From the NCBI GenBank assembly GCA_015491595.1, contig WFVP01000353.1, positions 1-10,406 of the forward strand: a stretch of DNA of 10,406 bases. Direction: 5' to 3'. The notes beneath the pieces were generated by a model. That model saw only the letters and a list, made by a program, of their open reading frames with translations. It did no database searches and had not been told where the DNA came from. Shown one piece after another: positions 1 to 10,406 of this stretch. The DNA is from Anaerolineales bacterium. GTDB taxonomy: Bacteria > Chloroflexota > Anaerolineae > Anaerolineales > DRMV01. Position numbers and translations under genes: made by a program. Numbering within the stretch: the first letter of the stretch is position 1; each line of letters opens with the position of its first letter.

Positions 1-476
1 CCCGCGTCCTTGGTGGCCTGCCGCTGGCTGTCGTTGAAGTACGCGGGCACGGTGATGACGGCCTTGTTCACCGGTTGTCCCAGGTAAGCCTCGGCATCGG
101 CCTTGAGTTTGGCCAGAATCATGGCCGAGATTTCCTGGGGCGTGAATTCCTTATCTACGGCCGGGATGTACACGCGCGCATCCCCCGCGGGGCCGCGCAC
201 CACCTTATAGGGCACCCGCTTGCGCTCCTCTTCCACCTCTTCGTACCGGCGGCCCATGAAGCGCTTGATGGAGTACACCGTGTTCTCCGGGTTCAGAATA
301 GCCTGCCGCTTCGCGGGCAACCCCACCAGGCGTTCCCCTTTCTTGGTGAAGGCCACCACCGAAGGACAAATCCGCGGCCCTTCCGCGGTGGGAATCACCG
401 TAACCTGGCCGCCTTCCATTACGGCGACCACGCTGTTGGTCGTACCCAAGTCAATGCCTACAATCTTGTCGGCCAT
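1..476 (-). CDS. dnaK: DnaK (Hsp70) chaperone, N-terminal fragment cut by window edge
   Basis: Reading leftward from the ATG at 476-474, the protein begins [19 protein letters not shown], the phosphate-1 ATP-binding loop of Hsp70 proteins. Further on are PSVVAF, a conserved [15 protein letters not shown] block (about residues 62-76) and, at the window edge, [20 protein letters not shown], all diagnostic of the DnaK nucleotide-binding domain. About 158 of the usual 600-640 residues are present; the rest of the ATPase domain and the whole peptide-binding domain lie outside. DnaK is the cytoplasmic ATP-driven chaperone that works with DnaJ and GrpE on unfolded proteins. A strong AAGGAGGTGG site just before the ATG fixes the start. 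It is transcribed divergently from the M20 hydrolase. No consensus CIRCE (HrcA) or HAIR (HspR) operator is visible upstream. Paralogues of DnaK (DnaK2, HscA) share these motifs, so the exact paralogue is slightly less certain than the family. Confidence 0.96.
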
Positions 477-480
477 GTGT

Positions 481-490
481 CCACCTCCTT
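481..490 (-). promoter_or_regulatory. Ribosome binding site of dnaK
   Basis: On the minus strand the sequence AAGGAGGTGG lies 4 bases before the dnaK ATG. Its AGGAGG core is 6 bases from the start. It is an almost perfect anti-Shine-Dalgarno match and supports the chosen start. Confidence 0.85.
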
Positions 491-523
491 CTCCTCACGC
501 TCGAAATTCCAGGTACGTGCAAA

Positions 524-542
524 GAAATCCCGTAAGGATTTC
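524..542. repeat. Perfect 7-bp inverted repeat in the dnaK leader
   Basis: GAAATCC (524-530), a 5-base loop CGTAA (531-535) and GGATTTC (536-542) form a perfect inverted repeat about 50 bases upstream of the dnaK start. It could be an operator or a small leader hairpin. It does not match CIRCE (TTAGCACTC-N9-GAGTGCTAA) or HAIR. The function is unknown and chance occurrence is possible. Confidence 0.45.
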
Positions 543-580
543 GGCCCTAAGCATAGCAACAATTTGCAAGAAGGCTATTA

Positions 581-595
581 ACATTGCGCGACTTT
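581..595 (+). repeat. Direct repeat copy 1 (ACATTGCGCGACTTT)
   Basis: This 15-base segment matches 664-678 at 13 of 15 positions, with the same orientation and an 83-bp offset. The pair flanks the extended -10 of the rightward promoter, one copy upstream and the other over the expected transcription start. A paired operator is possible; there is no recognised regulator. Confidence 0.35.
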
Positions 596-652
596 CGCCC
601 CCTTTCCCTCGCCGCCCCGTCCGGCTTCACCGACATCCTCCACCGCGGCCAG

Positions 653-661
653 TGGTATACT
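653..661 (+). promoter_or_regulatory. Extended -10 promoter of the hydrolase-transporter operon
   Basis: TGGTATACT contains the extended -10 TG dinucleotide and a near-consensus TATACT hexamer (656-661). No good -35 is found 16-18 bases upstream, as expected for TGn promoters. Transcription would start near 668, giving a leader of about 25-28 bases. Confidence 0.5.
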
Positions 662-663
662 TG

Positions 664-678
664 ACGTTGCGCAACTTT
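664..678 (+). repeat. Direct repeat copy 2 (ACGTTGCGCAACTTT)
   Basis: This is the second copy of the 13/15-matching repeat (first copy at 581-595). It contains the 8-bp palindrome TTGCGCAA and overlaps the predicted transcription start of the M20 hydrolase operon, a position where a bound repressor would block initiation. The role is inferred. Confidence 0.35.
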
Positions 679-692
679 GCATCCACGAGGGA

Positions 693-1904
693 ATGATGCT
701 GAACGAACAGATTGTACAGGCCATTCGGCAACGCGTGGAGGAACAGCGGGAGGCCCTGATTGCCTTCCTGCGGGACATCGTAGCCATTCCCAGCACCGAC
801 GGTCACATCCAGGCCGTAGGGGAGCGGGTGGCCGAAGAGATGCGCCGTCTGGGGTTCGACGAAGTCCGGTTCGACAAGATGGGGAACATCCTGGGCCGCA
901 TCGGCAACGGCCCCCGCGTCCTGGTCTACGATTCCCACATCGACACCGTAGGCATCGGCGACCCCGACGAATGGCAATGGGACCCCTTCCGGGGCAAGGT
1001 GGAGAACGGCGTGCTCTACGCCCGGGGCGCGTGTGACGAAAAGGGCAGCACGCCCGGCATGGTCTACGGCCTGGCCTGGGCCCGGGACCTGGGCCTGCTG
1101 GAAGGCTGGACTGCCTACTACTTCGGCAACATGGAGGAATGGTGCGACGGGCTGGCCCCCCGGGCCTTCGTGGAGGTGGACCCGGGCATCCGGCCCGACG
1201 CGGTGGTGGTGGGCGAGCCCACCCGGATGCAGGTCTACCGTGGCCACAAGGGCCGGGTGGAGATGCGGGTGGTGGCCAAGGGCAAAAGCGCCCACGCGGC
1301 CAGCAACCACCTGGGAGACAACGCCATCTACCGTCTCCTCCCCGTCATCGCGGGGATTCGAGACCTGGAGCCCCAACTGGGCGACCATCCCTTCCTGGGC
1401 CACGGCAAAATCACGGTGACGGACATGCGCGTCAAAACCCCCAGCATCAACGCGGTTCCTGACGAGGCCGTGATTTACATCGACCGTCGTCTGACCTTAG
1501 GGGAAACGAAAGAGGATGCGGTGGCCCAGGTGGAGGCCCTTATCCCCGAGGAAAGCAAGGGCAAGGTGTGGGTGGAGGTGCTTCAATACGAAGAGCCTTC
1601 CTACACCGGATTCGTATTGCCCGTGGAGAAGTACTTCCCCGCCTGGCTGCTGGAAGACGACCACCCCATCGTGCAGGCCGGGCAGAGGGTCCGGCGGCTC
1701 CTGGGTTGGCCAGACGCGCCCACGGGCAAGTGGGACTTTTCCACCAACGGGACCTACTGGGCCGGCGTCGCGGGGATTCCCACCATCGGTTTCGGCCCGG
1801 GGGACGAAATCTACGCTCACACCGTCCTCGACCAGGTCCCCCTGGAGGACGTGGTGCTGGCCGCGGCCTTCTACGCGCTGTTCCCGGCGGTCTACCGGCC
1901 GTAG
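693..1904 (+). CDS. M20 family metallohydrolase, YgeY (selenium metabolism-linked) type
   Basis: This is a 403-residue cytoplasmic zinc hydrolase of the M20/ArgE/DapE/ACY1 family. Visible metal and catalytic residues are H82 and D84 in DSHIDTVG, D115 in ARGACDEKGS, the glutamate pair E148-E149 in MEEWCDG, E175 in VGEPT and H376 in AHT near the C-terminus. The blocks GHKGRVEMRVVAKGKSAHA, IYIDRRLTLGET, PSYTGFVLPVEKYFPAW and KWDFSTNGTYW resemble E. coli YgeY much more than ArgE or DapE. Members of the family cleave amide bonds; the substrate of YgeY itself is not settled, and no selenoprotein gene is visible here. A second ATG at 696 lies 4 bases after GAGGG (687-691) and may be the true start. 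The zinc-ribbon gene follows 33 bases later and the Liv-type importer after that, which suggests joint transcription and an imported substrate. ArgE-like deacylase or dipeptidase activity is the main alternative. Confidence 0.88.
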   Translation: MMLNEQIVQAIRQRVEEQREALIAFLRDIVAIPSTDGHIQAVGERVAEEMRRLGFDEVRFDKMGNILGRIGNGPRVLVYDSHIDTVGIGDPDEWQWDPFRGKVENGVLYARGACDEKGSTPGMVYGLAWARDLGLLEGWTAYYFGNMEEWCDGLAPRAFVEVDPGIRPDAVVVGEPTRMQVYRGHKGRVEMRVVAKGKSAHAASNHLGDNAIYRLLPVIAGIRDLEPQLGDHPFLGHGKITVTDMRVKTPSINAVPDEAVIYIDRRLTLGETKEDAVAQVEALIPEESKGKVWVEVLQYEEPSYTGFVLPVEKYFPAWLLEDDHPIVQAGQRVRRLLGWPDAPTGKWDFSTNGTYWAGVAGIPTIGFGPGDEIYAHTVLDQVPLEDVVLAAAFYALFPAVYRP

Positions 1905-1924
1905 GTCCTCACCGGTCGGCACAG

Positions 1925-1930
1925 AGGAGG
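1925..1930 (+). promoter_or_regulatory. Ribosome binding site of the zinc-ribbon gene
   Basis: A full consensus AGGAGG lies 7 bases before the ATG at 1938. Such a strong site before a short open frame is good support that the small gene is translated. Confidence 0.8.
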
Positions 1931-1937
1931 AGAAACC

Positions 1938-2123
1938 ATGCTGCGTTGCATGTACTGTCACCGTCCCATCCCCCTGCCCAAAGACGCGGTCAAGGCCATC
2001 TGGGAGCGCTTGAAGGAGGACCCGCCCTCCCATGTGGACGTGGAGTGTCCCCGTTGCGGGCGGGTGAACAAGGTTCCCTTGCACACCTTTCGCAAACTGG
2101 TGCCCGGAGGAAGCGCTTCGTAA
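1938..2123 (+). CDS. Small zinc-ribbon protein of unknown function
   Basis: This 61-residue protein has two CxxC knuckles: C4-M-Y-C7 near the start and C37-P-R-C40-G. They are joined by a 29-residue segment that includes a predicted amphipathic helix (about 15-27, DAVKAIWERLKED). This is the layout of a treble-clef or zinc-ribbon fold binding one Zn2+. There is no signal peptide or membrane segment, so it should be cytoplasmic. A consensus AGGAGG 7 bases upstream supports translation. It sits 33 bases after the M20 hydrolase and 56 bases before the binding lipoprotein, inside the same co-directional run. I do not recognise a named family. It could bind nucleic acid, act as a small regulator, or serve a housekeeping role unrelated to the transporter. 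Confidence 0.75.
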   Translation: MLRCMYCHRPIPLPKDAVKAIWERLKEDPPSHVDVECPRCGRVNKVPLHTFRKLVPGGSAS

Positions 2124-2124
2124 C

Positions 2125-2148
2125 GAACAACCTGGCCGTGGGTTGTTC
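2125..2148 (+). terminator. Hairpin directly after the zinc-ribbon stop codon
   Basis: GAACAACC (2125-2132) and GGTTGTTC (2141-2148) form a perfect 8-bp stem around an 8-base loop, two bases after the TAA at 2121-2123. The following bases are TTAACAAC, not a T tract, so it is at best a weak terminator. It could instead protect a processed 5' end of the binding-protein message. Confidence 0.4.
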
Positions 2149-2168
2149 TTAACAACAAACAAACGAAT

Positions 2169-2174
2169 GGAGGT
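2169..2174 (+). promoter_or_regulatory. Ribosome binding site of the binding lipoprotein
   Basis: GGAGGT lies 5 bases before the ATG at 2180 and fixes the start ahead of a proper lipoprotein signal peptide. Confidence 0.8.
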
Positions 2175-2179
2175 GCGCT

Positions 2180-3523
2180 ATGAAACGCCTGCTGTGGTTG
2201 TCGGTGATATTGGCCCTGGGTATGGGGCTCCTGGTGGGATGCAAGCAGGCCACACCGGCCCCGACCGAGGCGCCCCAACCGCAAGTGGAAGAGAAGGCGA
2301 CCGAGGCGCCTCAGGAACAGCCCACCGAGGCGCCCCAGGCCAAGGAAATCGTGCTCACCATCGGATTCACCGAGTCCAAGACGGGCCGACTCAATGTCTC
2401 CTCGGGCCGCCAAGCCAAGGGATTGCGCCTGTGGATTAAGCACATCAACGAGGCCGGTGGCATCAAGTTGAGCGATGGCACGGTGGTGAAGTTCCAGGAA
2501 GCGTCGTACGACGACGAGTCCAGCAAGGATCGGGTACAGGAACTCTACACCAAACTCATCACGGAAGACAACGCGGATTTCCTCATCAGCCCCTACTCCA
2601 GTGGTCTGACCGCGGCCGCGGCCGTCATCGCGGAGCAGTACGAAAAGGTGATGATTACCACGGGCGCGGCCTCGGACTCCATCTACAAGCAGGGCTACAT
2701 GCACGTGTTCCAGATTTACACCCCGGCCAGCCGGTACCTGACGGGTGCCATTGACATGCTGAAGGAAGCCGACCCCAACCTGAAGAAGGTGGCCTTCGTG
2801 TACGAGCAGGCCAAGTTCTCTACCGCGGTGGTCGAGGCGGCCAAAGCCTATGCGGAAGAGCAGGGATACGAAGTGGTGCTCTTTGAGGGCTATCCTTCCG
2901 ATACCACCGACTTCGGCCCCTTCATCAACAAGATTGTGGAATCCGGCGCCGAAGCCGTCCTGGGCGGTGGTCACTTCCAGGACGGTTCCACCTTCGCCCG
3001 CCAGCTGTATGAAAAGCAGGCGCCAGTGAAGGCTGTGGTGCTGCTGGTGGCACCGCCGGAACCCGACTTCGCCGAGCTGGGCGAGGCGGCCTTCGGTATC
3101 ATCGGGCCCAGCCAGTGGGAACCCCAGGTGCAGTACACGCCCGATGCAGCCAAGGAACTGGGCATCGACTGGTATGGACCGTCCAACGAGGAATTCATCA
3201 AGGCCTATGAAGCCGAATACAACGAAGAGCCCTCCTATCACTCCGCGGGTGGCTACGCGGCGGGCATCATCCTGGAATATGCCATCAAGAAGGCCGACTC
3301 CGTGGATCCCCAGAAGGTGAAGGAGGCCCTGGAGGCCACGGACGTGCTCACCTTCTTCGGCCGCATCAAGTTCGACACCACCGAAGAGGCCCACGGCCTG
3401 CAAATCGGTCACGAGATGGTCTACATCCAGTGGCAGAAGGACGACCAGGGCAACCTGGTCAAACAGGTGGTGTGGCCGAAGGAAGGCGCCACCGCGGAAC
3501 TCATCTACCCCCTGCCGCGGTAA
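2180..3523 (+). CDS. livK: Branched-chain amino acid-type (HAAT) ABC transporter substrate-binding lipoprotein
   Basis: This 447-residue extracytoplasmic receptor delivers a ligand to the adjacent LivHMGF-type importer. It opens with a lipoprotein signal peptide: basic KR, a hydrophobic core, and lipobox LVGC with C21 as the lipidated cysteine. A low-complexity linker follows (about 22-55) containing TEAPQ three times (29-33, 41-45, 49-53), then a type I periplasmic binding fold (about 57-435). SPYSSGLTAAAAVIAEQ (137-153) and the following VMITTGAASDS segment correspond to the Ser/Thr-rich region that contacts the ligand's alpha-carboxylate and amine in LIV-binding proteins. It is longer than E. 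coli LivK (about 370), partly from the linker. A strong hairpin follows the stop, so this gene is probably expressed above the permeases. Family assignment is firm; whether the ligand is Leu/Ile/Val, another amino acid, or an amide cannot be told. Confidence 0.93.
   Translation: MKRLLWLSVILALGMGLLVGCKQATPAPTEAPQPQVEEKATEAPQEQPTEAPQAKEIVLTIGFTESKTGRLNVSSGRQAKGLRLWIKHINEAGGIKLSDGTVVKFQEASYDDESSKDRVQELYTKLITEDNADFLISPYSSGLTAAAAVIAEQYEKVMITTGAASDSIYKQGYMHVFQIYTPASRYLTGAIDMLKEADPNLKKVAFVYEQAKFSTAVVEAAKAYAEEQGYEVVLFEGYPSDTTDFGPFINKIVESGAEAVLGGGHFQDGSTFARQLYEKQAPVKAVVLLVAPPEPDFAELGEAAFGIIGPSQWEPQVQYTPDAAKELGIDWYGPSNEEFIKAYEAEYNEEPSYHSAGGYAAGIILEYAIKKADSVDPQKVKEALEATDVLTFFGRIKFDTTEEAHGLQIGHEMVYIQWQKDDQGNLVKQVVWPKEGATAELIYPLPR
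2264..2338 (+). repeat. TEAPQ-repeat linker of the binding lipoprotein
   Basis: Three copies of a Thr-Glu-Ala-Pro-Gln unit occur at residues 29-33, 41-45 and 49-53, encoded by near-identical ACCGAGGCGCC-type DNA. The segment lies between the lipidated cysteine and the folded domain and probably works as a flexible tether from the membrane. Confidence 0.7.
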
Positions 3524-3536
3524 CGCCATGAGGACG

Positions 3537-3572
3537 AAGGGGATGGGTCCTGAGGACCCATCCCCTTTCTTG
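3537..3572 (+). terminator. Strong intra-operon hairpin between binding protein and permease genes
   Basis: The arms 3537-3550 (AAGGGGATGGGTCC) and 3554-3567 (GGACCCATCCCCTT) form a perfect 14-bp stem closed by TGA, followed by the T-rich TTCTTG. It begins 13 bases after the binding-protein stop. It probably ends most transcripts there, or stabilises the upstream message, while readthrough feeds the permease and ATPase genes. Confidence 0.8.
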
Positions 3573-3607
3573 CATCCGTCGGAGCGAACCCGAAGGAGGT
3601 GCACTCC

Positions 3608-4474
3608 ATGGATATGGGTTTCCTGTTTGCCTCCCTCATCGACGGCCTGCTCCTGGGTTTCGTCTTCGGTGTAGCGGCCATCGGGCTGACCCTCATCTTT
3701 GGTGTCATGGAAGTCATCAACCTGGCCCATGGACCGGTGATTGCCCTGGGCATGTTCGGGCTGTATTTCGCCGTGACGTTGCTGGGCCTGCATCCCTATG
3801 CCGGGACCCTGCTCACCGCGGTGGGCGGCCTGTTCCTGGGCATCCTCATCTACGCCATCGCGGTCCATCGGGTCATCGGCGCGCCCCACCTCTCCAGCCT
3901 TCTGGCCACCTATTCCATCAACATGATGATTATCGGCATCGGGACGGCGCTCCTCACCACCTCCCCCCGCAACATCGAGTTCAGCCTGGGAAGCATGACC
4001 CTGGGGACCGCCACCATCCCGGTGACCCGCATCGTGGCCGCGCTGGCCTCCCTCCTGGCCGCGGTGGCCCTGTACCTCTTCATGCAATACACCCGTTGGG
4101 GCAAGTTCATCCGCGCGGTGACAGACAACCGCGACGCGGCCGAGTTGGTGGGCATTCCTTCCACCAAGGTCCTCGCCCTGAGCTTCGGTCTGGGCACCAT
4201 GCTGGCCGCCTTCTCCGGCGCGCTCATCGCCACGCTGTTCCCCTTCACCATCCTGGAGGGCGGCAAGTACGAGCTCAAGAGCTTCGTCATCAGTGTGCTG
4301 GGCGGGCTGGGCAATCCCATGGGTGCCCTCATCGGCGGTATCATCATCGGGCTCATCGAGGGCCTGGTGCCCGTCTTCCTGCCCACCACCTGGGTTCTGG
4401 TGGTGGAGTTCGTGCTCTTCGTGCTCATTCTGCTCATCCGACCCACGGGCCTCTTCGGCGGACGGGCCCAGTGA
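3608..4474 (+). CDS. livH: Branched-chain amino acid-type ABC transporter permease, LivH type
   Basis: This 288-residue inner-membrane permease pairs with the LivM-type protein to form the translocation channel. It starts with hydrophobic segments around the family hallmark AIGLTLIFGVMEVINLAHG (24-42). It has about eight membrane spans, and the cytoplasmic coupling loop RAVTDNRDAAELVGI (169-183), which contacts the ATPase subunits. The C-terminal part carries VLGGLGNPMGALIGG (230-244) and RPTGLFGG, also typical. The ATG at 3608 is preferred, with AGGAGG at 3594-3599 eight bases upstream; an in-frame GTG at 3599 overlaps that site and cannot be the start. The gene follows a strong hairpin and precedes the LivM-type permease by 21 bases. 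Confidence 0.95.
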   Translation: MDMGFLFASLIDGLLLGFVFGVAAIGLTLIFGVMEVINLAHGPVIALGMFGLYFAVTLLGLHPYAGTLLTAVGGLFLGILIYAIAVHRVIGAPHLSSLLATYSINMMIIGIGTALLTTSPRNIEFSLGSMTLGTATIPVTRIVAALASLLAAVALYLFMQYTRWGKFIRAVTDNRDAAELVGIPSTKVLALSFGLGTMLAAFSGALIATLFPFTILEGGKYELKSFVISVLGGLGNPMGALIGGIIIGLIEGLVPVFLPTTWVLVVEFVLFVLILLIRPTGLFGGRAQ

Positions 4475-4495
4475 TTTCGCCGCGGAGAAGCGACC

Positions 4496-5461
4496 ATGAA
4501 ACGTTCCCTGTGGACCCTGTTCCTGCCTGTTCTGGTGGTGCTGGCGGTGGGCCTGTATCCCCTCCTCACCCAGCAAGATGTGCACCGGGAAACGTCCTTC
4601 ACCCTGTTGCGGGCCGTGGCCCTGGCCGCCAGTCTGAACATCATCCTGGGCTTTACCGGGTACGTCAGTTTCGGTCACGTGGTGTTCTACGGCCTGGGTG
4701 GGTACGTGGCCTTCTACCTGGTGGCCGAAAAGGGCTGGCCTTTCTGGAGCGCGGTGCTCATGGGGGGTCTGGCCGCGGCGCTACTGGCCTTCCTCATCGG
4801 CGCGGGCATCCTGCGGCTCCGAGGGGCTTACTTCGCCCTGGTCACCATCGGCGTCAACGAGGCCATGAAGGCCTTCATCTACAACTTCCAGCCCTTCGGC
4901 GGTCCGGTGGGCCTGACGATGAACTTCGCGGTGTACAAGGCCTACGGCGGGCCGCGGGCGGTGTTGTGGATGACCTACCACTGGCTGTTCGTGGTCACCC
5001 TCATCGTGGTGGCGGTCAGCTACTGGATTCGCGTCTCGAAGTTCGGCCTGGGCCTGCTGTCCATCCGGGAAGACGAGGACGCGGCCGAGGTCATGGGCGT
5101 CCGCACCTCCTGGTTCAAAACCTGGGCCTTCACCCTTTCGGCCTTCTTCCCCGGCTTGGTGGGCGCCATCTTCTTCTTCCGTAACGCGTCCATCGAGCCC
5201 CATGACGCCTTCCCTCTGCACGTCTCCATCGAGTCCATCGTCATGGTCATGCTGGGAGGCCAGGGGACGGTCATCGGGCCCATCCTGGGCAGCATCGGGT
5301 ATCAGTGGATGCGGGTGTTCCTGCTGACCAACCGCCTGTTGAAGAACATCCAGCTGGCCGTGGCTGGCGGCTTGTTGCTGCTCATCGTGTTGTTCATCCC
5401 GGCGGGGTTGGTGGGCTGGCTGCGTCGCCGGTTCCCCGCGACCCGGAGGTTCCTGTTATGA
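4496..5461 (+). CDS. livM: Branched-chain amino acid-type ABC transporter permease, LivM type
   Basis: This 321-residue polytopic membrane protein is the second channel subunit. LivM hallmarks are SLNIILGFTGYVSFGHVVFYGLGGY (46-70, read as two adjacent blocks), LRLRGAYFALVTIGVNEA (106-123), the coupling loop SIREDEDAAEVMGV (189-202) and MLGGQGTVIGPILG (252-265), ending in a basic tail. A modest GGAG at 4484-4487 precedes the ATG by 8 bases. The stop codon overlaps the start of the LivG-type ATPase gene (ATGA), which implies translational coupling so that channel and motor subunits are made together. Confidence 0.95.
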   Translation: MKRSLWTLFLPVLVVLAVGLYPLLTQQDVHRETSFTLLRAVALAASLNIILGFTGYVSFGHVVFYGLGGYVAFYLVAEKGWPFWSAVLMGGLAAALLAFLIGAGILRLRGAYFALVTIGVNEAMKAFIYNFQPFGGPVGLTMNFAVYKAYGGPRAVLWMTYHWLFVVTLIVVAVSYWIRVSKFGLGLLSIREDEDAAEVMGVRTSWFKTWAFTLSAFFPGLVGAIFFFRNASIEPHDAFPLHVSIESIVMVMLGGQGTVIGPILGSIGYQWMRVFLLTNRLLKNIQLAVAGGLLLLIVLFIPAGLVGWLRRRFPATRRFLL

Positions 5462-6210
5462 ACGTGCTGTTGCGCACCGAAAACGTGGTCAAACGTTTCG
5501 GCGGTCTGGTCGCCGTCAATCAGGTCTCCTTCGAGCTCTACGAAGGCGAGATTCTGGGCCTCATCGGACCCAACGGCGCGGGCAAGACCACCCTGTTCAA
5601 CTGCATCAACGGCATCTATCGACCCGAGGAAGGACGCATCTTCTTCCGGGGTACGGACATCACGGGCTGGTCGCCCTCGCGCCTGGCCCACATGGGGATG
5701 GCCCGGACGTTCCAAATCGTGCGGCCCCTGGCCGAGCTCACCGTGCGGGAAAATGTCATGGTGGGCGCGGCCTTTGGGGAAAAGCGCCTCCCCCTGAGCC
5801 AGACGGCCCGGGTGGCCGACGAGGTGTTGGCGTTCCTGGGCCTGGCGGACCGAGCCGACCAGCTGGCGGGAAGCCTGAACGTGGCCCAGAAGAAGCGCCT
5901 GGAGCTGGCCCGCGCCCTGGCATCCCAACCCCGCCTGTTGCTGTTGGACGAGGTCCTCGCCGGCCTGAACCCCACGGAAGTGGACGAAATGGTGGAAACC
6001 ATCCGCCGCATTCGGGAACAGGGCATCACCATCCTCATGATTGAGCACGTCATGCGGGCCATCATGAACCTCTCGGACCGCATCCTGGTGCTGGATTTCG
6101 GCGAGCTCATCGCCGAAGGCACGCCCGAGGAAATTGCCCAGAACGAACGGGTCATCAAAGCCTACCTGGGCGACCCCAAACTGGCCCAGCGTTTTGCCCT
6201 GGAGGAGTAG
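5458..6210 (+). CDS. livG: Branched-chain amino acid-type ABC transporter ATPase, LivG type
   Basis: This 250-residue cytoplasmic ATPase powers the importer together with the LivF-type protein. Motifs in order: Walker A GPNGAGKT (37-44), Q-loop Q86 in MARTFQIVRPL, Walker B LLLLDE (160-165) followed by VLAGLNPTE, and the switch histidine H197 in MIEHVM. The ABC signature is unusual: LNVAQ (140-144) stands where LSGGQ or LAYGQ is expected, though the following KKRLELARAL is normal. The frame is open further upstream to 5305, but the start is placed at the ATG at 5458, which overlaps the livM stop (ATGA) and has GGAGG (5445-5449) eight bases before it. The stop is 4 bases before the livF-type start. 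Family assignment is firm. Confidence 0.95.
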   Translation: MNVLLRTENVVKRFGGLVAVNQVSFELYEGEILGLIGPNGAGKTTLFNCINGIYRPEEGRIFFRGTDITGWSPSRLAHMGMARTFQIVRPLAELTVRENVMVGAAFGEKRLPLSQTARVADEVLAFLGLADRADQLAGSLNVAQKKRLELARALASQPRLLLLDEVLAGLNPTEVDEMVETIRRIREQGITILMIEHVMRAIMNLSDRILVLDFGELIAEGTPEEIAQNERVIKAYLGDPKLAQRFALEE

Positions 6211-6214
6211 CGAG

Positions 6215-6925
6215 ATGGCCATTCTCGAAGTCCAGAACGTCTCCACCGGCTACGGTGAAGTCCAGGTCTTATGGGACGTCAGCCTGCGTCTGAAACCCGG
6301 ACAGGTCACCGCTCTGGTGGGCGCCAACGGCGCGGGCAAGACCACCCTCTTGCGCACCATCGTGGGTCTGCTGAAACCCTGGGAGGGCCGCATCTTCTTC
6401 GAAGGGGAGGATGTGACCCACCTGCCGCCCCATCGCAAGGCGGAGATGGGCCTCATCCTGGTGCCGGAGGGACGCCAGCTCTTCACCCACATGACCGTAT
6501 ACGAAAACCTGGAAATGGGGGCCACGCCTCAGCGGGCCCGGGCCAAATTCCAGGAGAACCTGGAACTGGTGTTTTCCATGTTCCCCCGCCTCAAAGAACG
6601 CCTGAACCAGAAGGCCGGTACCATGAGCGGCGGGGAGCGCCAGATGCTGGCTGTGGCCCGGGGCCTCATGGGCGCGCCCAAGGTGCTCATGATTGACGAG
6701 ATGTCCCTGGGCCTGGCCCCGGTGCTGGTGCTGGAGCTCTACGAGAGCCTGAAGCAACTGCGGGAAGCGGGCATCACGGTGCTTCTGGTGGAACAGAACG
6801 TGCACATGGCCCTGGCCGTGTCGGACTACACCTACGTCCTGGCCGAGGGTCGGGTGGAGATGGAGGGTCCTTCCCAGGAAGTGGCCCGCAACCCCCACGT
6901 ACGCACGGCCTACCTGGGGATTTAG
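6215..6925 (+). CDS. livF: Branched-chain amino acid-type ABC transporter ATPase, LivF type
   Basis: This 236-residue cytoplasmic ATPase is the partner of the LivG-type protein. It shows Walker A GANGAGKT (36-43), the LivF-typical VPEGRQLFTHMTVYENLEMG (83-102), a canonical signature MSGGE (137-141), Walker B VLMIDE (157-162) with MSLGLAP, and VEQN (192-195), where the switch position is glutamine, as is usual for LivF. The start at 6215 has GGAGGAG (6201-6207) inside the end of the upstream gene, 7 bases away; an upstream in-frame extension from 6134 overlaps livG and is rejected. It is the last gene of the cluster and is followed by a strong terminator. Confidence 0.96.
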   Translation: MAILEVQNVSTGYGEVQVLWDVSLRLKPGQVTALVGANGAGKTTLLRTIVGLLKPWEGRIFFEGEDVTHLPPHRKAEMGLILVPEGRQLFTHMTVYENLEMGATPQRARAKFQENLELVFSMFPRLKERLNQKAGTMSGGERQMLAVARGLMGAPKVLMIDEMSLGLAPVLVLELYESLKQLREAGITVLLVEQNVHMALAVSDYTYVLAEGRVEMEGPSQEVARNPHVRTAYLGI

Positions 6926-6956
6926 ACCCTGCGGGCTACCCTCCCAACCCCATTCC

Positions 6957-6997
6957 ACAGGAAGGCCGACGGTCCGGTTCCGTCGGCCTTCCTGTTT
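6957..6997 (+). terminator. Rho-independent terminator at the end of the transporter operon
   Basis: The arms 6957-6972 (ACAGGAAGGCCGACGG) and 6980-6995 form a perfect 16-bp stem with the 7-base loop TCCGGTT, followed by TT. It begins 31 bases after the last ATPase stop. The T tract is short, but the stem is very stable and well placed. Confidence 0.85.
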
Positions 6998-7118
6998 GAG
7001 GGACGCTTGGGTGCGTTCCTCCATCCTTTCTCCACGGGCCCTCCACACATTCTCCATCCCTTCGCCGTAGACTGGAGATGGAGCCCTTCTTCGAGGGGGG
7101 CCTTCCATTGGCGAGGTC

Positions 7119-7127
7119 TGGTATGAT
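7119..7127 (+). promoter_or_regulatory. Extended -10 promoter of the threonine synthase gene
   Basis: TGGTATGAT shows the TGn extension and a TATGAT hexamer (7122-7127). No convincing -35 is present. Transcription would start near 7134, 34 bases before the chosen ATG. Its position inside the possible upstream extension of the reading frame argues for the later start. Confidence 0.5.
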
Positions 7128-7167
7128 TGGTGCGGCACGGGCATTCCCCAAACGGCGGAGCCATACG

Positions 7168-8223
7168 ATGGACGCCTCATGCGGCATTCTGGCCCGATAT
7201 CGCGATTGGATGGACCTTCCCCCGCATACCCGAGACCTGGACCTATGCGAAGGCCATACGCCCCTCATCCCGGTGCCCCGCCTGGCCCGGCGGCTGGGCG
7301 GCGGCTTTGACCTGTACGTGAAGTACGAGGGACTGAACCCCACAGGGTCCTTCAAGGACCGAGGGCTGGTGGTGGCCGTGGCGGAAGCCTGGGGTCGGGG
7401 CGCCCAGGCGGTCATCTGCGCGTCCACCGGGAACACCGCGGCGTCGGCCGCGGCCTACGCGGCACGCGCGGGGCTCCGGGCCGTGGTGGTGGTCCCTCAG
7501 GGAAAGGTGGCCCTGGGCAAGCTCGCGGGCGCCCTGGCCTACGGCGCGCGCGTGGTGCAGGTTCGGGGCTCCTTCGACGACGCCCTGGCCCTGGTCCGGG
7601 AAGCCGTGGCCCGCTTCCCCATCGCCTTGGTGAACTCCATCAATCCCTATCGGCTGGAAGGCCAGAAGACCGCAGCCTTCGAAATCGTGGACGCGCTGGG
7701 CCGGGCTCCCGACTGGCTGGCCATCCCGGTGGGCAACGCCGGCAACATCACCGCGTACTGGATGGGCTTCCAGCAGTACCACCAGGCGAAGGGCACCGGA
7801 CTGCCCCGTCTCCTGGGGGTCCAAGCCGAAGGAGCCGCGCCCCTGGTCCACGGACGCGAGGTGGCCCGGCCGGAGACCATCGCCACGGCCATCCGCATCG
7901 GGCGACCCGCCCGGGGGAAGGAAGCCCTCCAGGCGGTGCAGGCCTCCCGGGGACGCATCATCGCGGTACCCGACGAGGCCATCCTGGAAGCCCAGGCCTG
8001 GCTGGCTCAGGAAGGCCTCTGGGTGGAGCCCGCCTCGGCCGCGGGCCTGGCCGGTCTGGTGGCGGAGATTCGAAGGGGACGCCTGGACCCCCGGGGGAAG
8101 ACCATCGTGGTGGTCTGCACCGGCCACGGGCTCAAGGACCCCGACATCGTGCTGAAGCGTCATGAGGCCCTCCCCCTCATCGAGCCCGACCTGGACGCCC
8201 TCCAACCATGGCTCATGACGTAA
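7168..8223 (+). CDS. thrC: Threonine synthase
   Basis: This 351-residue cytoplasmic fold-type II PLP enzyme converts O-phosphohomoserine to threonine and phosphate, the last step of threonine synthesis. Diagnostic features are EGHTPLIPVPRLA (28-40), NPTGSFKDRG with the Schiff-base lysine K63, ASTGNTAASAAAYAARAG (85-102), the NPYRLEGQKTAAFEI block, the PLP-phosphate loop PVGNAGN, and the C-terminal CTGHGLKDPD typical of threonine synthase rather than threonine dehydratase or cysteine synthase. The length matches the short ThrC class. The frame is open back to 7078, but the ATG at 7168 is preferred because the extended -10 promoter lies at 7119-7127, CGGAG (7156-7160) is 7 bases upstream, and homology starts just after it. 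It stands alone between a terminator and the STAS gene; no thrA or thrB is in the window. Confidence 0.93.
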   Translation: MDASCGILARYRDWMDLPPHTRDLDLCEGHTPLIPVPRLARRLGGGFDLYVKYEGLNPTGSFKDRGLVVAVAEAWGRGAQAVICASTGNTAASAAAYAARAGLRAVVVVPQGKVALGKLAGALAYGARVVQVRGSFDDALALVREAVARFPIALVNSINPYRLEGQKTAAFEIVDALGRAPDWLAIPVGNAGNITAYWMGFQQYHQAKGTGLPRLLGVQAEGAAPLVHGREVARPETIATAIRIGRPARGKEALQAVQASRGRIIAVPDEAILEAQAWLAQEGLWVEPASAAGLAGLVAEIRRGRLDPRGKTIVVVCTGHGLKDPDIVLKRHEALPLIEPDLDALQPWLMT

Positions 8224-8360
8224 AGGATTCTCTGAAATGATGATTTCGAGTTATACTTTCAACAGGACGGGAACCCGGTTTCCGTCGCCACATGGGAGCT
8301 CTCCACGGATGGACGCAATCCAACCGATTAGGGGGAACGTGAGGAGAGGAGGAGGAGACG
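8224..8360 (+). promoter_or_regulatory. Leader of the STAS gene with a possible -10 (TATACT)
   Basis: TATACT at 8252-8257 resembles a -10 hexamer; TTCTCT at 8228-8233, 18 bases upstream, is only a poor -35 match. A small hairpin GAAAT-GATG-ATTTC (8234-8247) overlaps the region just after the thrC stop. A promoter here would give a leader of about 100 bases. The gene could also be reached by readthrough from thrC. Confidence 0.35.
8348..8355 (+). promoter_or_regulatory. Ribosome binding site of the STAS gene
   Basis: A purine-rich GGAGGAGG run ends 5 bases before the ATG at 8361 and decides the start. Confidence 0.75.
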
Positions 8361-8750
8361 ATGAAAGTCACAGTCCGCAGGCCACAGTCGCGCGTGTCGA
8401 TTGTGGTGCCGGAAGGTCGTATTGACGCGGTCTCCGGCCCCAAGCTCCGGGTGCTGCTCCGCAACCAAGCCAAGCAAGGCACCCCCTTTCTCATCATCGA
8501 CTTACGCCGAGTCACGTTCATGGACTCCTCGGGTCTGAGCGCCCTGGTATCCGCGTTGAAAGCGGTACGTCCCCTCAAGGGCGCGGTGTACCTGGTCGGC
8601 CCGACCCCTCAGGTACGCATGGCCCTGCGGATGACCATGATGGATCAAATCTTCCCCATTTACGAGACGGTGGAAGACGCGCTGGCCGCGCTCTCCACCT
8701 ACCCCACCTCCACGACCACCGCGGCAGAAGAACGGGGCATGTCGTCATAA
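8361..8750 (+). CDS. STAS-domain anti-sigma factor antagonist (SpoIIAA/RsbV type)
   Basis: This 129-residue cytoplasmic protein is a single STAS domain (about 1-112): beta strands from VTVRRPQSRVSIVVPEGRID, then FLIIDLRRVTFMDSSGLSALV. In SpoIIAA and RsbV the second serine of the DSSGL motif is phosphorylated by the partner anti-sigma kinase; here that is S57 of D55-S56-S57-G58. Unphosphorylated forms release a sigma factor by binding the kinase. A Ser/Thr-rich tail (about 113-129) is probably disordered. No HATPase anti-sigma kinase, PP2C phosphatase or sigma factor gene is adjacent, so the partner is encoded elsewhere. Family assignment is strong; the controlled pathway is unknown. Confidence 0.9.
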   Translation: MKVTVRRPQSRVSIVVPEGRIDAVSGPKLRVLLRNQAKQGTPFLIIDLRRVTFMDSSGLSALVSALKAVRPLKGAVYLVGPTPQVRMALRMTMMDQIFPIYETVEDALAALSTYPTSTTTAAEERGMSS

Positions 8751-9060
8751 AAACCCACAAACAACCGGCCTCCCGCCCAGGCCAAGCCGATGGGGGACGG
8801 ACGTGCACGTGGCGGTTCCACACCTTGGCCCGTGACATTTTCTATAGGTCTCAGGCCCTCCGGGGTAAAGGCCAGGCGCGGGCTGCCACCCCACGGGAAA
8901 GGGTGGAGAAACCTTGGGCGTCCTCGGGACCCGGGCCGGAGGGAGGAATGCCATCCGGGTGAGGCAGCGCGGGCTCGGCCGCCTCATCCCGGCCGTCCCG
9001 CCGTCGTCCGCTGCCGGAGAACGTCCACAGGCGGGGCCGTGGAACCCGCTTCTCCCTGCC
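8751..9060. other. GC-rich gene-free stretch with several potential hairpins
   Basis: No open frame here has a ribosome binding site plus recognisable protein sequence. Visible structures: GGCCT/AGGCC (8767-8771/8779-8783), the 10-bp palindrome ACGTGCACGT (8801-8810), CCACCC/GGGTGG (8886-8891/8901-8906) and a longer CCGGGTGAGGC arm near 8956 pairing, with one bulge, to GCCTCATCCCGG near 8982. TATAGG at 8843-8848 could be a -10 without a good -35. I looked for T-box, riboswitch, RNase P, tmRNA and tRNA signatures and found none convincing. It may hold a terminator for the STAS gene or a structured leader. Confidence 0.4.
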
Positions 9061-9089
9061 TTGAGTCCCCCTTCCCCCTGCGATACAAT
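9061..9089 (+). promoter_or_regulatory. Sigma-70-type promoter of the glycyl-tRNA synthetase gene
   Basis: TTGAGT (9061-9066) and TACAAT (9084-9089) are separated by exactly 17 bases, each differing from consensus at two or fewer positions. Transcription would begin near 9096, leaving a leader of about 32 bases. This is the best promoter in the window. Confidence 0.7.
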
Positions 9090-9113
9090 GAGGCGGGTTC
9101 GAAATCCGCACAA

Positions 9114-9119
9114 AAGGAG
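9114..9119 (+). promoter_or_regulatory. Ribosome binding site of the glycyl-tRNA synthetase gene
   Basis: AAGGAG lies 8 bases before the ATG at 9128. An ATG at 9121 is closer but out of frame with the synthetase. Confidence 0.75.
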
Positions 9120-9127
9120 CATGCGAC

Positions 9128-10406
9128 ATGGGGCAAGCACCAACGTTCCAGGAAGTCATCCTGCGCCTGCACGCGTTTTGGCAGAACCAGGGGTGCGTGC
9201 TCTGGCAGCCCTACAGCGAGAAGGTGGGCGCGGGCACCATGAACCCGGCCACCGTGCTCTTCGTGCTCGGCCCCGAACCCTGGAACGTGGCCTATGTGGA
9301 GCCTTCCTACCGGCCCGACGACGGCCGGTACGGTGAGAACCCCAACCGCATGCAGATGCACACCCAGTACCAGGTCATCCTCAAGCCCGACCCCGGCAAC
9401 CCTCAGGAAATCTACCTGCAGAGCTTGGAGGCCATCGGCATCGACCCCAAGAAGCACGACATCCGCTTTGTGGAGGACAACTGGGAATCCCCCGCGCTGG
9501 GCGCGTGGGGCCTGGGATGGGAGGTGTGGCTGGACGGCCTGGAAATCACCCAGTTCACCTACTTCCAGCAGGCCTGCAGCCAGGAACTGCACCCGCCGGC
9601 CATTGAAATCACCTACGGCCTGGAGCGCATCGTCATGTTCCTGCAGGGTGTGCGGCGGGTGTGGGATATTCAATGGAACGAATACCTGACCTACGGCGAC
9701 CTGCTCCTGCAGGCGGAAATCGACCACTGCAAGTACAACTTCGAGGTGGCCAGCATCGAGCGCCTGCGCCGCTTCTTCGATGAGTACGAGGCCGAGGCCC
9801 TGAAGGCCATCGAGGCCGGGCTGGTCATCCCCGCGCACGATTACGTGCTGCGCTGCTCCCACACCTTCAACGTGCTGGACGCGCGCGGGGCCATCGGCGT
9901 CACCGAGCGGGCCCGCTACTTCGCCCGCATGCGGGACCTGGCCCGCCGGGTGGGGGAACTGTACCTGAAACAGCGGGAGGCCGCGGGGTATCCGTGGCTC
10001 GAGCGGCGGTCCGCAGTGCGCAGTGCGCAGTCAGCCGTTGGCGGACAGCGGACAGCAGACAGCGGACAGCGGACCGCCGACCAACGACCAACGACCAACG
10101 ACCAACGAACGACGAACGACGATTTCGTCTTCGAAATCGGTACCGAGGAACTGCCGGCCCGGGACGTGCGCAGCGCGGTGGCGCAGTTGCAGCGCCTGGT
10201 CCCCCAGACCCTGGAGGAACTCCGGCTGGAGCATGGCCCGGTGCAGGTGCTGGGCACCCCGCGGCGCCTGGCCGTGTACGTCAGGGGCCTGGCCACCCGC
10301 CAGCAGGACCGGGAGGTGGAGGTCAAGGGCCCGCCCGCGGCCGTGGCCTTCGACGAGCAGGGGCGACCCACCCAGGCCGCCAAAGGCTTTGCCCGCAAGC
10401 AAGGCG
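9128..10406 (+). CDS. glyQS: Fused glycyl-tRNA synthetase alpha-beta (GlyQS), 3' end beyond window
   Basis: One open frame encodes both subunits of the bacterial-type glycyl-tRNA synthetase, which attaches glycine to tRNA-Gly. Residues 1-294 are the alpha subunit: [81 protein letters not shown] and EITYGLERI, the class II catalytic core of GlyQ. Residues 295-331 are a Gln/Arg/Thr/Asp/Asn-rich linker encoded by heptanucleotide repeats. From 332 the beta subunit begins with [18 protein letters not shown], then [14 protein letters not shown] and [13 protein letters not shown], matching the GlyS N-terminus. There is no stop between them in this frame, and the window ends at residue 426, before most of beta. 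Fused GlyQS is known in some lineages such as Chlamydia; in most bacteria the two are separate genes. The fusion is read directly; a sequencing or assembly artefact at the repeats is the only serious alternative. Confidence 0.93.
10013..10033 (+). repeat. Heptanucleotide repeat block 1 (GCAGTGC)
   Basis: Three tandem heptamers occur: GCAGTGC, GCAGTGC and the variant GCAGTCA. It is the first of three period-7 blocks in the linker of the fused glycyl-tRNA synthetase gene. Confidence 0.8.
10042..10076 (+). repeat. Heptanucleotide repeat block 2 (CGGACAG)
   Basis: Five tandem heptamers occur: CGGACAG at 10042, 10049 and 10063, the variant CAGACAG at 10056, and the degraded CGGACCG at 10070. In this frame the block encodes a Gln-Arg-Thr-Ala-Asp-Ser-Gly cycle of seven residues per three heptamers. 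Confidence 0.88.
10081..10122 (+). repeat. Heptanucleotide repeat block 3 (CCAACGA)
   Basis: Four exact CCAACGA heptamers (10081-10108) are followed by two variant ACGACGA units (10109-10122), ending exactly where the beta-subunit homology begins. The block encodes a Gln-Arg-Pro-Thr-Thr-Asn-Asp cycle. Confidence 0.9.

Follow-up and report, generated by a model that had tools for sequence, protein, structure and literature searches.

A composite heptamer array in the linker of a fused glycyl-tRNA synthetase of Anaerolineales probably belongs to a genome-wide population of 7-bp arrays

The window analyzed here, a stretch of 10,406 nucleotides from an Anaerolineales bacterium, ends within a gene for a fused glycyl-tRNA synthetase (GlyRS). 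Pfam places PF02091 and PF02092 in a single open frame, as in a fused GlyRS of the (alpha-beta)2 type, and the two domains are joined by a composite array of 7-base repeats. The features of this locus are:

9128..10405, + strand: fused glycyl-tRNA synthetase gene (glyQS), an open frame with PF02091 and PF02092 whose beta part is cut by the contig end
9146..9979, + strand: GlyRS alpha domain PF02091, residues 7-284 (Pfam)
10004..10079, + strand: predicted RNA hairpin in which blocks 1 and 2 pair, 5' arm 10004-10040 and 3' arm 10046-10079
10012..10122, + strand: composite heptamer array forming the GlyRS alpha-beta linker (TRF, unit counts, lag-7 self-match)
10012..10031, + strand: block 1, GCAGTGC units, GT type (TRF, exact units)
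10041..10081, + strand: block 2, CGGACAG units, AC type, with an additional 21-nt period at 2.0 copies (TRF, exact units)
10078..10122, + strand: block 3, CCAACGA units that degenerate into AACGACGA (TRF, exact units)
10124..10405, + strand: beginning of the GlyRS beta domain (Pfam PF02092, residue 333 onward); no in-frame start codon separates it from the array

Elsewhere in the window, the neighboring open frames at 2180-6925 resemble an ordinary operon for a branched-chain amino acid ABC transporter, judging by eye from their translations. Rfam gave no match anywhere in the window.

The initial annotation of this DNA described three 7-base tandem blocks lying side by side and translated as the linker of an enzyme, and both observations are borne out. 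TRF reports period-7 repeats of CGCAGTG at 10012-10031 (2.9 copies), GCGGACA at 10041-10074 (4.9 copies, 92% match), and CGACCAA at 10078-10108 (4.4 copies, 100%), with degenerate copies reaching 10122 in its longer-period rows, and the array at 10012-10122 holds exact GCAGTGC, CGGACAG, and CCAACGA units two, three, and four times, respectively. The best 56-nt segment of the gene has a lag-7 self-identity of 50/56, against a maximum of 36 in 500 codon shuffles and of 26 in window positions 1-10000; in possessing tandem 7-bp units above chance, the array conforms to repeats of the STRR type. The coding frame stays open across the whole array, which encodes approximately residues 295-332, between the alpha and beta domains. 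In-frame start codons near the array are a GTG at 10016, at its beginning, and the next start codon at 10166, inside beta; as none lies between the array and beta, an intact beta part requires that most of the array, if not all of it, be translated. The encoded peptide is hydrophilic and, to judge from its composition, probably a disordered spacer. The contig ends 284 nt past the array, and in this draft assembly the exact copy number of the units is uncertain.

The initial annotation had pointed out the stop-freedom of these units. Each of them, when repeated, is indeed free of stop codons in all six frames, but the actual array carries one TGA in a minus-strand frame. The property itself is commonplace, being shared by 8264 of the 16384 possible heptamers and having a probability of about 0.73 at 66% GC. 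Outside genes there is no enrichment for stop-free arrays, as 35 arrays not wholly within predicted genes average 3.29 open frames of six, compared to 3.42 for 253 ordinary gaps.

It had also been suggested that stop-free heptamers could act as a general fusion bridge, a role that does not survive a survey of relatives. A GlyRS match was obtained from 55 of the 61 genomes searched, 38 of which have an open frame of at least 990 aa, and several matches below 990 aa are cut by contig ends. No clear split glyQ/glyS pair was seen, with the non-spanning matches of G001, G003, G008, G009, and G010 checked for contig ends; the G009 and G010 contigs end within or just past the linker and show no heptamers there, and that of G001 begins inside beta. 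Fused GlyRS is also present in records named Eremiobacterota, Gemmatimonadota, and Latescibacterota, and in the solved structures 7lu4 and 7xjy, whose alpha-linker-beta architecture is the same as here. A passage in PMC9908026 likewise describes some GlyRS as joined by a linker. At the protein level, the aligned stretch of 7lu4 is 17 residues shorter than the window GlyRS and contains no such repeat. Since the alpha-beta fusion is order-wide and 87 of 107 linkers are non-heptameric, the array most likely entered a linker that already existed, and thus most likely postdates the fusion.

Heptameric linkers nonetheless recur. Linkers could be extracted from 108 of 110 GlyRS loci, and 21 of these (20/107 without the duplicate record L097) reach at least 21/28 identity at lag 7, the threshold used here to define a heptameric linker. 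The same threshold at lags 4-6 and 8-12 is reached by zero to two linkers each, and codon shuffling of the linkers yielded no heptameric linker in 298 of 300 rounds and one in the other two. Multiples of three (6, 9, and 12) are not favored, which argues against a protein-level repeat as the cause of the periodicity. Block order is partly common within one genome, and units differ between lineages: AACGACC/ACAGCGG in the window, AATCCCC/AGTCCCC in a clade with Caldilineaceae, and ATCTTCC, AGCAGTT, AATTACC, CCCCTCG, AAGCGGG, or AGGAGTC in others. The Caldilineaceae units AGTCCCC/AATCCCC presumably resemble an STRR. On a quick GlyRS tree of 107 sequences, built without the linker, the heptamer label needs 11 changes, at least 10 of these forced by starred branches, with gains not separable from losses. 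The 15 records from Eremiobacterota, Gemmatimonadota, or Latescibacterota contain no heptameric linkers. Heptameric linkers are longer than the others (median 33 aa vs 28 aa, p 4e-5), and close pairs less often have equal lengths (1/24 vs 109/214 non-heptamer pairs, the pairs not being independent). Multiples of 7 aa, which hold within the genus in all three comparisons of MutS and GlyRS, are not a general rule of linker length in this wider set, as differences of 7 or 14 occur in 6 of the 24 heptamer pairs and 0 in one.

The initial annotation likened the units to scattered, mostly intergenic bacterial heptamers and called for a search for further copies in the genome, and the search upheld the likeness, finding dozens of related arrays, mainly between genes and some inside them. 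In the window's own genome, the array region gave 48 blastn matches at E<=1, two of them itself, and 34 non-self matches at E<=1e-3. Two of these arrays keep the block order over approximately 100 nt (L012 matches query positions 1-119 and L008 positions 2-103). The 14-base unit pair CCAACGACCAACGA occurs six times in this genome, three of them in the window array, and its reversed control not at all; CGGACAGCGGACAG with up to two mismatches occurs 79 times, against 14 for its control, its sole exact match being the window array. The GCAGTGC unit was covered by the blastn query of the array region only. In 19 stretches (305,657 bases) of a genome of the same genus, G002, we found 16 segments at lag 7, five at lag 8, and one at lag 12, and the remaining segments among lags 2-24, at a threshold of 18, fall only at multiples of 7 or 8; triplet shuffles of these stretches gave no segments at six lags. 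Octamer arrays are also present in the same-genus genome (e.g., CGAATGAG and CGCTTTAC, at L199:2284-2367, L199:4878-4913, L201:626-703, and L206:14061-14121), and two GlyRS linkers from other families (L073 and L091) score at lag 8.

Over 40 stretches (601,586 bases), G002 contains 23 arrays. By the gene calls of a simple custom gene finder, four lie wholly inside predicted genes, one of these on a deliberately chosen GlyRS contig, and 18 lie mainly outside; one more (L247) overlaps a gene by 56% and is flanked by divergent neighbors. Ten of the 18 noncoding arrays are within 33 nt of both adjoining genes. None of the 18, a count that excludes L247, lies in a divergent gap, although 51 of 333 gaps of at least 40 nt are divergent, a result expected by chance about 5% of the time. 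On the sense strand these noncoding arrays are biased toward AC (14) over GT (4). This population therefore shares dispersal in many genomic copies with STRR-type repeats, and most of its arrays are noncoding; the GlyRS array, being coding, departs from STRR-type repeats in position. Arrays also accompany heptameric linkers in other genomes. Seven genomes of this kind were sampled, among them G019, whose linker score of 19 is just under the threshold; they contain 26 arrays in 403 kb, of which three are the GlyRS linkers themselves, and all but G052, in whose 28 kb there are no arrays, carry arrays elsewhere. Of the genomes whose linker was measured and is non-heptameric, G042, G029, and G043 have no arrays in 120 kb and G027 has two in 20 kb, and three genomes whose linkers were not measured (G028, G038, and G054) have one in 120 kb.

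Individual intergenic sites vary between genus members. The gap L186:4072-4130 holds an array in G000 and a different array in G003, and its G002 version has a GC-rich inverted repeat in place of an array, which points to fast turnover, perhaps of interchangeable hairpins. The flanks of three arrays (L187:3607-3659, L213:8706-8830, and L206:5106-5166) match separate places in the other genome; arrays may thus lie at rearrangement points, but identities of only 77-83% would also allow for paralogs.

Coding copies in the genus extend beyond GlyRS. In-frame arrays are present in domain III of MutS, in a loop of a formylglycine-generating enzyme (FGE)-sulfatase-like protein, at the N terminus of argininosuccinate lyase, and in ribonucleotide reductase, where one sits between the barrel and TSCPD domains and another in a fragment with inteins. 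The N termini of shikimate dehydrogenase and a Mur ligase probably carry them as well, their start codons being uncertain. A ribonucleotide reductase large chain at L190:4205-8809 (+ strand) combines LAGLIDADG inteins with an in-frame heptamer array. The mutS and argH genes concerned are:

L177:3352-6075, - strand: mutS with an in-frame heptamer array in domain III, first of three genus members
L213:14313-16991, + strand: mutS with the same type of array, second genus member
L252: mutS with the same type of array, third genus member
L186:4306-6012, - strand: argH with an array at its start
L226, L233, and L223: further argH genes with an array at the start; depending on the genus member, the argH start codon precedes the array or falls inside it

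The MutS loop, measured by alignment in 29 of 30 fetched loci (part of all MutS matches), is 66, 73, and 52 aa long in the three members of the genus, against 21-30 aa for 25 of the 26 others and 43 aa for the last; four of the 29 loops are heptameric, including one (L274) from outside the genus. In argH, the sole in-frame start of G000 precedes the array, G001 has an ATG before it and a GTG inside, and the nearest start of G002 and G003 is inside, so that the array forms an N-terminal extension of varying length depending on the genus member.

The initial annotation also called for a comparison of repeat number. The same-genus GlyRS linker holds a different heptamer array that is exactly 21 nt shorter, and with the MutS arrays, which differ by +21 and -42 nt, all three within-genus changes are multiples of 21. 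Among noncoding arrays of the genus, one differs by +35 nt and another by -11 and +34 nt and, against G002, where the site lacks an array, by -35 nt. The ArgH arrays differ by -171, -13, and -175 nt, a comparison made unreliable by weak flanks, one of them poorly scoring. All nine in-frame arrays (seven gene sites) encode a peptide on the sense strand that is more hydrophilic than its antisense counterpart; as noncoding arrays have a similar sense-strand bias, such hydrophilic peptides need not reflect selection on the protein.

Some of these arrays have an inverted layout. In the predicted minimum-energy RNA fold of the window array (-47.9 kcal/mol, z -3.11, with none of 200 shuffles as good), block 3 is left unpaired, and positions 10004-10078 match their own reverse complement at 73% identity (blastn, E 2.8e-6). 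In roughly half of the heptamer linkers, the first half is made of heptamers and the second of their reverse complements. With the duplicate L097 excluded, the folding z is -2 or lower in 10 of 20, and the inverted-repeat z is at least 3 in 11 of 20, six of these 11 coming from one Caldilineaceae-type clade. Mean folding z relative to codon shuffles is -2.5 in 21 heptamer linkers and -0.3 in 84 others (p 4e-7), three intermediate linkers (19-20/28) having been dropped; values near 0 were found for the heptamer linkers L113, L084, L111, and L078. Purine content falls along the linker from 0.62 to 0.34 in heptameric linkers and from 0.57 to 0.40 in others, and only slightly in the window (0.59 to 0.54). 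Where arrays contain two unit types, GT mostly precedes AC: 10/10 on G000 contigs, which were chosen by their match to the window array, and 5/7 in G002, where one array is the chosen GlyRS contig, or 15/17 together. Palindromy is not general, since 16 of the 23 G002 arrays are one-armed and only seven have both unit types. A sense-then-antisense order inside a linker that has neither a stop nor a start is as a DNA-level origin would give, and amino-acid preferences could add to it.

Taken together, we consider it likely that the GlyRS array is a member of a genome-wide population of 7-bp arrays, some palindromic, that exists at the DNA level and whose coding copies are kept only where they are tolerated. 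Such arrays would arise and turn over in DNA by slippage in 7-bp steps, and a second, inverted arm could be added by template switching or foldback, processes that we infer rather than observe directly. Selection would retain coding copies only if they are stop-free, have a length of 3n, and lie in a tolerant loop, linker, or N terminus, and would favor an intact frame and a hydrophilic peptide. A single 7-bp unit moves the reading frame by one position, and coding copies are accordingly predicted to gain or lose units in threes (21 nt, a heptad of the peptide) or to vanish, which provides a built-in test of a DNA-level origin; a period of 7 is, in addition, not expected from a protein-level cause, 7 not being divisible by 3. 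A broader proposal, that heptamer arrays, often palindromic, are a continuing source of protein segments in Chloroflexota, written into genes in the same strand arrangement as between genes, with the GlyRS linker as a favored acceptor that was filled independently in many lineages by different heptamers (some ten changes on the tree) and evolves in heptad steps, is tentative and on balance doubtful, as it is weakened by the low share of two-armed arrays in G002 and the biased polarity sample of G000.

Other explanations of the locus fit less of this evidence. A mobile coding element of the kind proposed for Rickettsia palindromic elements, moving whole into intergenic and coding sites with insertion in the linker being tolerated, would be consistent with the scatter of arrays through the genome, the prevailing GT-then-AC order, the long-range block order kept in L012 and L008, and a MutS insertion that is genus-specific among the measured loci. 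However, units at the same GlyRS linker differ by lineage, the arrays are highly variable in length and composition and mostly one-armed in G002, and no end sequence or mobility gene was identified, so that we regard such an element as unlikely. We give still less weight to a selected function, in which a hairpin in the mRNA would delay ribosomes at the alpha-beta junction or make the transcript more stable. Folding that beats shuffles, recurrence at one site, the absence of noncoding G002 arrays from divergent gaps, and a layout like that of the Xanthomonas/Nostoc heptamers, as far as passages in PMC4692102 describe it, all speak for it, but the great majority of GlyRS linkers do without heptamers, a clear hairpin is missing from roughly half of the linkers that are heptameric, and members of the genus do not conserve the sequence of the array.

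The two remaining explanations we judge extremely improbable. That the array created the fusion, as a stop-free spacer that let translation read through separate glyQ and glyS genes, would agree with its position exactly at the junction and its lack of stops in the coding frame; fused frames nevertheless occur throughout the order, in further phyla, and among solved structures, the linkers being non-heptameric in most cases, and stop-freedom is ordinary at this GC. An assembly artifact, with repeats collapsed or misjoined at a contig end, might be suspected in a draft contig that stops so soon after the array, and misassembly was among the refuting outcomes that the initial annotation itself had named; it is countered by a separate same-genus assembly, whose fused gene is 93% identical and has an in-frame heptamer linker of its own.

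The origin of linker and loop sequence in proteins is an open question, and some of it seems here to come from a DNA repeat process whose unit is not a triplet, apparently acting on one and the same position of an essential enzyme in many lineages. More speculatively, the arrays within mutS, a repair gene, are candidate sites of frameshifting: slippage by one unit would change the reading frame and might, in principle, serve as a mutator switch.

Heptamer arrays in the linker of GlyRS were not reported in the literature covered, which was mainly open-access and included few subscription papers. The comparison set for heptameric repeats comprises the GATAGRA satellites of Chloroflexus, the TAACTGA repeats of Beggiatoaceae, and the GGGAATC repeats of Xanthomonas. 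Excerpts of the respective sources describe 22 satellites built from the heptamer GATAGRA in Chloroflexus aurantiacus (PMC6749651) and TAACTGA repeats of which some lie within ORFs, mostly at protein ends (PMC4679880). The relevant passages of PMC4692102 place the G-rich heptamers of Xanthomonas and Nostoc between aligned ORFs, in sense orientation downstream of stops and in antisense orientation upstream of starts, and describe them as scarce in coding and divergent regions. Like such heptameric simple sequence repeats and the STRRs of cyanobacteria, the arrays described here have 7-bp units, are dispersed and mostly intergenic with few in divergent gaps, and favor period 7 over other periods. 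Unlike them, they mix units within one array, some are inverted, and some lie in frame in conserved enzymes, repeatedly at one linker. In-frame palindromes at typically non-structured positions are described for coding palindromes of Rickettsia, Wolbachia, and Methanocaldococcus in the portions of PMC6649704 and PMC2996958 that deal with them, and, judged against the latter, the present arrays share palindromy, an in-frame position, housekeeping genes, and non-structured sites with the Rickettsia palindromic elements and the palindromes of Wolbachia and Methanocaldococcus. A palindrome in frame within unrelated genes is found here as in the Rickettsia elements, with the qualification that not every in-frame array is two-armed. 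In contrast to the Rickettsia palindromic elements, these are tandem heptamers whose sequence is not shared across lineages, only some copies are palindromic, and nothing points to transposition. By likeness only, the array may thus be set beside both systems, resembling Rickettsia palindromic elements built from STRR-like heptamers.
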